This document shows positions 7,398-17,378 of a stretch of 64,000 bases of DNA, one piece after another. Position numbers and translations under genes: made by a program. Within the stretch, counting starts at the first letter, position 1. Each line of letters starts with the position of its first letter. The notes under the pieces were generated by a model. It did no database searches. It was not told the origin of the DNA and worked only from the letters and a program-made list of their open reading frames with translations. Source of the DNA: Acidobacterium sp. (GTDB lineage Bacteria; Acidobacteriota; Terriglobia; Terriglobales; Acidobacteriaceae); assembly GCA_003166955.1 (NCBI GenBank), contig PMUI01000077.1, forward strand, positions 1 to 64,000, in the 5' to 3' direction.

Positions 7398-7921
7398 GCG
7401 GACTCGAGTATGGGCTGAATGATTTTTGCGGTGGTGACGGCCTGGCCGGTGTGGCGCTGGGTGTGGTCGGCGCAGTGGACGAGCAGCCCGCCGACGGATG
7501 TAGGCAGGCCTTTGCGTCCGATGCTGCGGGGCTCGTTGAGGTCAGCGGCGGAGAAGGTCTGAACGCGCCGGATCGCTTCGTCGATTCCTTTGCGAAATTC
7601 TGAGAATACTTCGGCGTGGGTGGCGCCGAGGTCGAGTTCTGTTTTGAGCGCGGTGAGCTGGGCCGGACTGAGTTGCGCTGGGCCCAGCTGGTTGCATTCG
7701 GCGTAGGTGAGGAGGCGGTCGAGACTGCGCACGATGTGGCGCAGATGGAAGGCGACGGGGGCGATGCCGGCGGGGCGGGCGTTGAGGGCTTCGCCGTTCA
7801 GGGGCGCACACCATTTCTCGATGTCCTCGCGGGCGAGTTCGAGCGCGTGGACGACGGCGCGGAGGACGGCGGGGGTTACTGTGTGCGTGCCGCGAAGCCA
7901 GGGTTCGGGTTGTGTGGCCAT
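7385..7921 (-). CDS. DinB-like (YfiT/DinB_2) family protein
   Basis: A 178-residue four-helix DinB-superfamily protein, possibly a metal-dependent thiol-transferase-like enzyme; its substrate is unknown. The conserved metal-site histidines are in FHLRHIVRSLDRLLTYAE and the C-terminal HCADHTQRHTGQ. The ATG at 7921 is preferred because AAGGAGGAGG lies upstream of it; the ATG at 7948 would put that site inside the coding sequence. No link to its neighbours is evident. Confidence 0.8.
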   Translation of the reverse strand: MATQPEPWLRGTHTVTPAVLRAVVHALELAREDIEKWCAPLNGEALNARPAGIAPVAFHLRHIVRSLDRLLTYAECNQLGPAQLSPAQLTALKTELDLGATHAEVFSEFRKGIDEAIRRVQTFSAADLNEPRSIGRKGLPTSVGGLLVHCADHTQRHTGQAVTTAKIIQPILESAQNP

Positions 7922-8261
7922 GCTTGTTTGGGGTGCCTCCTCCTTCATTATTCATGGCGGGGTGCGCGGCAGAGAATCTGTAGCTGTTCATTCGCGAAAG
8001 CGGCGCGATCGAAGCGACGGGCCATAGGGCTCGGGCTTCGACTCCGTCGGTACTCGCCTCGTGGGGGCGTGAATTCTAACGCAATTCCAAAGCTTCTCTA
8101 AATTTCTGAACCAACCCCAAAACACGCATTGGTGGGCTGGAGCTGCGTATGCGGCGTGCGTGCGTTTTGCAACAATTTATGACTTCCATAAATCCCTCTG
8201 CGCAAAGGAATAATTCGCGGCTGTGGCGGAGTTGTAGCTTGTTGTAACTTCCATCGCCGGC
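7922..8261. other. Intergenic region, no gene recognised
   Basis: About 340 bases upstream of the DinB gene and before a gene relic. No convincing coding frame, RNA gene or terminator was seen. The stretch at about 8100-8220 is noticeably more A/T-rich than the surrounding genes. Confidence 0.4.
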
Positions 8262-15935: not shown

Positions 15936-15980
15936 GCGGCGGGAAGGCGGGGTATCATAAAAGGGGGGAGTAAAGCAGCC

Positions 15981-16187
15981 ATGGCTCGTTCTGCGATTCT
16001 GACCAATCCGATCCCGACCCTCGAAGAGTTCGGGGACAGCCTCGGCCTGAGCAAGTCGCGGCAGCGGTCATTGATCGACATTGTGCGGAACGGCGCGAAT
16101 GGACGCCCCGCCGGCCGGACTTCCGCCCGGAAAACCGTGAAGCGCGAGACGCCGCGTCGGAAGACTGCGCGTGCAAAAGCCTCATAA
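15981..16187 (+). CDS. Small basic protein, partner of TIR-like gene
   Basis: A 68-residue protein with a strong ribosome-binding site (GGGGGGAG) before ATG 15981. Residues 13-37 (TLEEFGDSLGLSKSRQRSLI) look like a helix-turn-helix, and the C-terminal 30 residues are Arg/Lys-rich (RKTVKRETPRRKTARAKAS). It could bind DNA or RNA. Its last 17 nt overlap the start of the TIR-like gene, so the two are translationally coupled and probably act together. Function is unknown; an antitoxin-like or regulatory role is an inference only. Confidence 0.7.
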   Translation: MARSAILTNPIPTLEEFGDSLGLSKSRQRSLIDIVRNGANGRPAGRTSARKTVKRETPRRKTARAKAS

Positions 16188-16791
16188 GCCTGCCGCCGTA
16201 TTCCTGAACATCCCCTACGACGATCGATTCCGGCGCCTCTACCTGGCCTACATCACAGGGCTGACGCAACTGGGACTGGAGCCGCGCGCAACGCTGGGAA
16301 TTCCCGGCGGCGAACGGCGGCTGGACCGCATCCAGGCGCTGATTGAGAGCTGCCCATATTCCATTCATGATCTGTCGCGGGTCCAGCTGGACAGGAACCC
16401 GCCGCCGACGCCGCGATTCAATATGCCGTTTGAGCTGGGCCTGACTGTGGCCCTGGCGCGAAGAAACGCGGCGAGACACCTGTGGTTCGTTTTCGAAGCC
16501 GAGGAACGGCGCCTCATGAAATCGCTGAGCGATCTGAACGGCAGCGACGTGTACATCCACGACGGGACCGTGGAGGGGGTGATGCGTCAGCTGTGCAATG
16601 CTTTTGTGCGGCGGCGGGGCCCGCAGCCGACGGTCCCGGAGATGATGAAGACATACAGGCTCGTGTCGCGCCGCGTGGACGCAATCATGGCGAACGCCGG
16701 TGCTCGCAGCATTTTTGAGGCGCGTGTGTTCGCCGATCTGTCATTCGCGGCGCAGACCACGGTGAAGCTCCTGCGACGGGAACTGGTTTGA
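16171..16791 (+). CDS. TIR / nucleoside-deoxyribosyltransferase-like protein
   Basis: A 206-residue protein from GTG 16171. The first 100 residues look like a Rossmannoid fold: strand AAVFLNIPYDD, then RRLDRIQALIESCPYSIHDL, then RFNMPFELGLTVALA. The SxxDLS strand followed by N-x-x-FELG parallels TIR-like and nucleoside 2-deoxyribosyltransferase-like proteins, where the Glu of F/YELG is catalytic (here Glu88). The remaining 100 residues are a helical domain. Such proteins often cleave NAD+ or nucleotides in defence, but this family has no name that I know. Same operon as the 68-residue protein. Confidence 0.65.
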   Translation: MQKPHKPAAVFLNIPYDDRFRRLYLAYITGLTQLGLEPRATLGIPGGERRLDRIQALIESCPYSIHDLSRVQLDRNPPPTPRFNMPFELGLTVALARRNAARHLWFVFEAEERRLMKSLSDLNGSDVYIHDGTVEGVMRQLCNAFVRRRGPQPTVPEMMKTYRLVSRRVDAIMANAGARSIFEARVFADLSFAAQTTVKLLRRELV

Positions 16792-16829
16792 GTCTTCAGC
16801 AGTAGCCGAGGTGGGAGAGAATCTCGGAA

Positions 16830-17378
16830 TCATGGGTGAGAGGGCGTAGGGTTGGGCGGGGTCGCGAGGCAGGCTTCGATAGCCTGTTGCCAGTGCGGGC
16901 CGCTGTCGCGGTCGCTGCTCCCCATCGCGGTCACATCGTCGTTAGCGGTGGCTGCGAGCGCGGTGCGGGCGTAGGTCACTTCGACGGCGGTATGCGATGC
17001 GTTGGCCGGCGTGAGGCGCACATCGATGACGCTGATCACCACGTCGGGGATGATGGAGACGTATTGCATGCGGGCCGCGTCGAGGTCAAAGACCGTGTTG
17101 ACCCAGATGCTGGTGTGCGGGCCGTGCTGGACGGTGAAGACTGCGCCCTGGGTATCACGGGCTGGCTGTGGGTAGAGGAAGTGCGGATCCCAGTGTTTGC
17201 CGGCCCAGCAACGTTCGCCTTCCGGACCGAAGAGCGGCGCGGCGTGGGCGAGCAGGACGGCGAGCTGGAAGTGGAAGGTGTTGACCACGTGGGCGAGGGG
17301 CGGGGTTGGAGGCATGGGAGTCTCTGGTTGCTGGGCGGTGAGGAGCGGGAAGACGAGGGCGAACAGGATCGGGATCAT
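16830..17378 (-). CDS. Exported SRPBCC-like protein
   Basis: A 182-residue protein with a signal peptide (MIPILFALVFPLLTAQQP). The body matches the START/SRPBCC pattern: the helix PLAHVVNTFHFQLAVLLAHAAPLF, a CWAGKHWDPHFLYPQ segment, GAVFTVQHG, the strand SIWVNTVFD, and the C-terminal TAVEVTYARTALAATANDDV. It may bind a hydrophobic ligand. Its ATG overlaps the stop of the upstream ribbon-helix-helix gene by 4 nt (ATGA, 17375-17378), so that regulator probably controls it. Confidence 0.7.
   Translation of the reverse strand: MIPILFALVFPLLTAQQPETPMPPTPPLAHVVNTFHFQLAVLLAHAAPLFGPEGERCWAGKHWDPHFLYPQPARDTQGAVFTVQHGPHTSIWVNTVFDLDAARMQYVSIIPDVVISVIDVRLTPANASHTAVEVTYARTALAATANDDVTAMGSSDRDSGPHWQQAIEACLATPPNPTPSHP

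Follow-up and report, generated by a model that had tools for sequence, protein, structure and literature searches.

The window analysed here, a 64,000-nucleotide stretch of DNA from an Acidobacterium sp. (contig PMUI01000077.1), contains two short, overlapping genes on the forward strand, referred to as P1 and P2. The overlap of a 68-residue and a 206-residue protein by 17 nt, proposed in an earlier, sequence-only reading, is confirmed to the nucleotide. P1 is preceded by a purine-rich stretch, and the sequence GGAAG lies immediately 5' of the P2 start codon. Because high GC content by itself tends to make spurious open reading frames rich in arginine, the net charge of P1 alone is left out as evidence; the case for both genes rests on their homologous families. 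Over the first 36 codons of P1, comparisons with five relatives give 21–25 differences at third positions and 4–9 at second positions, a bias indicating that this frame has been evolving as a protein-coding one. The features of the locus are collected in Table 1.

Table 1. Coordinates and predicted features of the P1/P2 locus (positions in the window).
Feature	Position	Strand	Basis
Shine-Dalgarno-like purine-rich stretch before P1	about 15963..15969	+	read from sequence
P1, small basic partner of type A (68 aa), predicted minimal HTH and basic tail	15981..16187	+	ATG at 15981 to stop at 16187; homologous ORF upstream of P2 homologues
P1 residues 13-38, predicted helix-turn-helix core, TLEEFGDSLGLSKSRQRSLIDIVRNG	16017..16094	+	AlphaFold2 helices and sigma-70 region 4 profile
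P1 basic C-terminal tail, predicted disordered	16095..16184	+	pLDDT 55-59 after residue 40
P1/P2 reading-frame overlap, 17 nt	16171..16187	+	read from sequence
P2, 206 aa, predicted TIR/NDT-fold effector	16171..16791	+	GTG at 16171 to stop at 16791; homologues, AlphaFold2 model, structural and profile comparison
P2 motif H66-D67-L68-S69-R70, core-strand end	16366..16380	+	75 homologues; AlphaFold2 strand 63-67
P2 motif P81-R82-F83-N84-M85-P86-F87-E88-L89-G90	16411..16440	+	aligns with RxNxxFExG of CAP12/Pycsar TIRs
P2 Glu88 codon, putative catalytic residue	16432-16434	+	invariant in 75 homologues
P2 motif S120-D121-L122-N123-G124	16528..16542	+	corresponds to SDLxG of CAP12/Pycsar TIRs
P2 residues 155-206, C-terminal extension of three helices beyond the TIR core	16633..16788	+	AlphaFold2 helices 155-166, 169-176, 184-205

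P2 has no family match in Pfam, NCBIfam or PHROGs. Searches with HMMER against all Pfam TIR models, and against PF05014 and DUF4062, likewise return no match, and no PF05014 protein is found in the genome of the window. In PADLOC, the best model for P2 is PDC-M02B (E 0.03), which is not significant, and the best value among 62 of its homologues (E 0.002) is also counted as no significant match. Four of these 62 homologues touch PF10137 below its cut-off (best E 0.016); the effector of locus L110 scores 15.5 bits against a cut-off of 24.7. A search of PDB sequences with the P2 profile yields chance-level matches only. A scan of genome contigs gave 339 candidate stretches, 308 of which are relatives. 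The homologues at the best 79 loci share 41–72% identity with P2, are collinear with it over nearly the full length, and come mainly from Acidobacteriota, with further members in Rokubacteria, Tectomicrobia, Nitrospirota, and delta- and betaproteobacteria.

An AlphaFold2 model of P2, built from the 62-sequence alignment (mean pLDDT 92.4, pTM 0.89), comprises a TIR-like core extending to about residue 150, followed by three helices. Structural comparisons give Z scores of about 10–11.6 to DNPH1, the SPARTA TIR-APAZ protein, AbTir, plant TIRs and nucleoside deoxyribosyltransferases (NDTs), with DNPH1 highest at 11.6 and the NDTs at about 10. The top Foldseek rows, flavodoxin-fusion GPCR structures with an rmsd near 21 Å, are set aside as flavodoxin-like look-alikes. 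In profile comparisons, P2 scores 41.2 (E 6.7e-6) against a CAP12/Pycsar TIR profile built from proteins of related genomes, with 40 decoys at or below 19.9, and 32.8 against an NDT/DNPH1-type profile, with decoys at or below 20.0. The alignment with the CAP12 profile spans about 135 columns and is collinear through the RxNxxFExG and SDLxG motifs. By profile, P2 is thus nearest to the CAP12/Pycsar TIR family, and its modelled fold has a flavodoxin-like TIR/deoxyribosyltransferase core with a conserved Glu.

The sequence-only reading had drawn attention to an SxxDLS strand and an N-x-x-FELG layout, both of which are present as S64-I-H-D-L-S69 and N84-M-P-F-E88-L-G90, and the likeness to TIR and deoxyribosyltransferase enzymes that it drew from them agrees with the fold predicted by AlphaFold2, Foldseek and structural comparison. 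Among 75 homologues, Phe11, Asn13, Arg50, Arg82, Asn84, Met85, Pro86, Glu88, Gly90 and Asp121 are 100% conserved; His66, Asp67 and Ser69 are each kept in 98%, Arg70 in 92%, Ser120 in 96% and Gly124 in 98%. Glu88 aligns by profile with the conserved Glu of both CAP12-type TIRs and DNPH1/NDT-type enzymes and, because the active-site motifs are invariant across these homologues, is likely to be the catalytic Glu of P2. An equivalence of Asp67 with the helix Asp of DNPH1 (Asp80) was dropped, since in the profile alignment Asp67 terminates the core strand and does not coincide with that residue. By analogy with the CAP12/Pycsar TIR family, NAD is probably the substrate.

The HTH-like character proposed earlier for P1 is supported by a profile match to sigma-70 region 4 and by a two-helix model. 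In the AlphaFold2 model (mean pLDDT 75.5), helices span residues 14–21 and 25–38, and the blocks past residue 40 are without secondary structure. The P1 family profile matches SigA in the PDB with a whole-sequence E of 5.8e-8; this value combines two weaker stretches, of which one falls in region 4. Matches to Pfam Sigma70_r4 are seen for 11 of the 58 family members, at a best E of 0.0011. As modelled, P1 is a minimal HTH closest to sigma-70 region 4, which makes DNA binding by P1 likely.

The two genes are tightly coupled. By iterative search, 87 of 102 loci have an upstream ORF of the P1 type. As a control, all 16,528 stop-to-stop ORFs from 914 kb of related loci were scanned: 79 of 80 P1-profile matches lie directly before an effector, and at the sole other match (L021) the effector is at a contig end. 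These figures uphold the earlier expectation that the pair would co-occur and, together with the collinearity of the P2 homologues, argue that the pairing is more than chance. The five loci missed by the control scan have divergent small genes, four weakly P1-like (L044, L075, L077 and L078) and one encoding a SWIB-domain protein (L072). In a census of 297 Acidobacteriota genomes, only P1 matches with E < 1e-6 were counted because weaker thresholds yield many likely chance HTH matches; 10 of the 11 strong matches abut an effector, the exception being an orphan P1 (L116). In genome G073, a P1-type gene persists next to an effector that is truncated about 30 residues in. Among the loci examined, none of the full-length P1-clade effectors was seen to lack a small partner. 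Overall, the coupling is very strong and near-obligate.

The identity of the partner varies over an effector core that stays the same. When 112 distinct effectors are sorted by partner profile, 78 have a P1-type partner, 14 a DUF2188 protein (Pfam E values reaching 7.4e-26) and 8 a lysine-rich protein. Among the 12 left unassigned, several have a small basic ORF of another kind in the partner slot, one is cut by a contig end (L095) and one adjoins a TIR-TPR gene (L091). The stop codons of the three partner types sit at the effector start, with median offsets of 0, -2 and -2.5 nt. The P1-type domain is also found fused to HU (L013 and L061; Pfam E 3.9e-22 and 1.2e-11), to an Xre HTH (L055; 6.4e-14) and to DUF2188 (L070), and within the P1 clade, the partner slot of L072 (about 7691-7949) is occupied by a small SWIB/MDM2-domain gene (1e-28). 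A helix common to P1 and the lysine-rich type is unsupported (hhalign P 0.27). The effector tree has two supported clades: P1-type partners go with the first, DUF2188 and lysine-rich partners with the second. The partner labels require 10 changes against a possible minimum of 5, so that partner swaps, in uncertain number, are likely inside the second clade. A single genome, G254 (L087, L099-L102 and L116), holds six effector-family matches with differing partner types, together with an orphan P1.

The distribution of the module is that of an accessory element, patchy and variable in site. The effector is present in 17 of the 297 Acidobacteriota genomes and in 3 of 12 genomes of the same genus. 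In the window, the pair follows a metallophosphoesterase gene, and it was not found beside that gene in the six genomes of the genus that hold it. There, the gene is followed directly by the pectinesterase-like gene (G406) or by GH8 (G397), or else the slot holds another gene, of 361 aa (G400 and G401), or unrelated sequence (G405); in G404, the contig ends too near the gene to settle the presence of the pair. G401 and G397 hold related pairs at other sites. The slot itself (15936-16830 in the window; L287-L292 in relatives) is variable within the genus, and in G405 the metallophosphoesterase gene has its final 19 codons repeated 192 bp downstream.

Beyond these genomes, the wider family occurs on alphaproteobacterial plasmids and on viral contigs or prophages; the phage records searched gave no match. 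As read from the sequence, a DUF2188 partner and effector are inserted in a prophage, with apparent tail genes to one side and a tape-measure-like gene to the other (L224, 6524-10674), and another such pair on a viral contig is flanked by two TIR-like genes (L223, 7006-10364). A membrane protein gene also flanks the latter pair, and the cluster resembles a defence cluster. In L091 (361-2103), a divergent effector without a small partner is immediately preceded by the gene of a TIR_2-TPR protein. Presence near defence genes, a check proposed in the earlier reading, is not the rule: the 66 genes that flank type-A loci at up to about 2.5 kb, taken without a control set, are mostly housekeeping genes with few matches to defence models, and placement in defence islands is unsupported for these sampled loci.

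Taken together, these observations suggest, at a rough probability of 0.55, that the pair is an immune module of the abortive-infection or toxin-antitoxin-like kind, in which a TIR effector is controlled by a DNA-binding partner. P2 would be an effector of the TIR superfamily, in which Glu88 probably serves an NAD(P)+ glycohydrolase activity or that of a nucleotide N-glycosidase closely related to it, and P1 its small DNA-binding partner, produced together with it from the overlapping frames. P1 would restrain P2, either keeping it inactive or holding it on DNA, and would probably repress the operon; infection or another insult would break this hold, allowing P2 to oligomerise and deplete NAD. 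A defence or toxin-antitoxin role of the pair is reasonably probable in itself, and restraint by P1 is slightly favoured over activation because a partner without a full-length effector is seen, in two cases only (L116 and G073). The strongly basic character of the partner, unlike many antitoxins, counts against this reading, as do the mainly housekeeping neighbours of type-A loci and the absence of a HMMER match of P2 to any Pfam TIR model. A TIR-type effector restrained by its DNA-binding partner is the most economical model.

The main rival, activation by nucleic acid, keeps the same components and reverses the sign: P1 and the other basic partners would detect nucleic acid that is foreign or damaged, and would turn on a P2 that is inactive by itself. 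Diverse partners of nucleic-acid-binding type (HU, SWIB, Xre, sigma4-like HTH) over a constant effector core are what swapped sensors would look like, and in TIR-like effectors such as Swarozyc, the sensing of a phage ligand and oligomerisation are what turn on activity (PMC13174449). Such a sensor should at times leave lone effectors, yet what is found is the reverse, the two partners that lack a full-length effector and no solitary full-length effector in the P1 clade, and activation is possible though rather unlikely. A role in nucleotide housekeeping instead of immunity, with P2 acting as a hydrolase or base-exchange enzyme of the DNPH1/NDT-like kind and P1 as a local regulator, is improbable. 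Although DNPH1 heads the structural comparison and the NDT/DNPH1-type profile also exceeds its decoys, the CAP12/Pycsar TIR family is the closer profile match; moreover, the module occurs in about 6% of genomes, is carried on plasmids and prophages, was not found at this site in relatives, and has TIR genes nearby in L223 and L091. That P2 is a non-enzymatic TIR-fold nucleotide sensor or scaffold, akin to the inactive TIR-DrHyd-SLOG class members that bind nucleotides as sensors (PMC9503650), is very improbable, given that Glu88, Arg82, Asn84 and Asp121 are kept without exception across 75 divergent homologues, as expected for an enzyme.

If the immune-module reading is correct, the pair would constitute a compact TIR-effector system in which neither gene has a curated family in Pfam or NCBIfam. 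The swapping of unrelated basic, often DNA-binding partners over one core would let the holding-off and triggering of TIR enzymes in two-gene modules be tested directly. The reading would also suggest a role for DUF2188 as an effector partner, a link that is not evident in the open-access papers found to name DUF2188. In a more far-reaching and doubtful version, the TIR effectors of both clades would as a rule be paired with an interchangeable nucleoid-type protein (the sigma4-like HTH, HU, SWIB, Xre, DUF2188 or lysine-rich type) and, tethered to DNA, would guard the state of the nucleoid or DNA, the NADase being freed or triggered when a phage damages the nucleoid of the host or when foreign DNA is present.

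No description of the pair was found in the libraries or the open-access papers searched, in keeping with the earlier remark that it has no known name, and its parts resemble those of several known systems. Similar to P2, members of the CAP12/Pycsar TIR family (PF10137; TIR-STING, PycTIR and TIR-SAVED) have a TIR fold with RxNxxFExG and SDLxG in the same order, and they become active NADases by oligomerisation (PMC13142454); P2 has the look of a functional TIR. Unlike these proteins, P2 fails the Pfam gathering score, carries a three-helix extension with no STING or SAVED domain in its chain, and adjoins the gene of a 68-aa HTH protein in place of a cyclase gene. The Swarozyc/DUF4062 proteins are TIR-like NADases outside the standard Pfam TIR models, distant kin of NDTs, with a conserved Glu (PMC13174449). 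P2 shares the position outside those models and the conserved Glu; the auxiliary domains of DUF4062 proteins lie within the same chain, whereas the partner of P2 is encoded by a separate upstream gene and P2 lacks a DUF4062 match. DNPH1 and the NDTs (PF05014) have the same core fold and a conserved Glu aligned to Glu88, but P2 has no PF05014 match, scores lower against their profile than against CAP12 TIRs, and has PRFNMPFELG in place of the NDT-type pattern. The NAD-depleting toxin-antitoxin module NatR-NatT (PMC11535050) has a similar two-gene layout, and the Xre-type HTH fused to the P1 domain in L055 offers a further parallel. NatT, its NAD-depleting toxin, is an NAD+/NADP+ phosphorylase, and P1 differs in being a predicted minimal sigma4-like HTH with a basic tail. 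Type II toxin-antitoxin systems share with P1/P2 the arrangement of a small gene of DNA-binding type upstream of, and overlapping, the effector gene.
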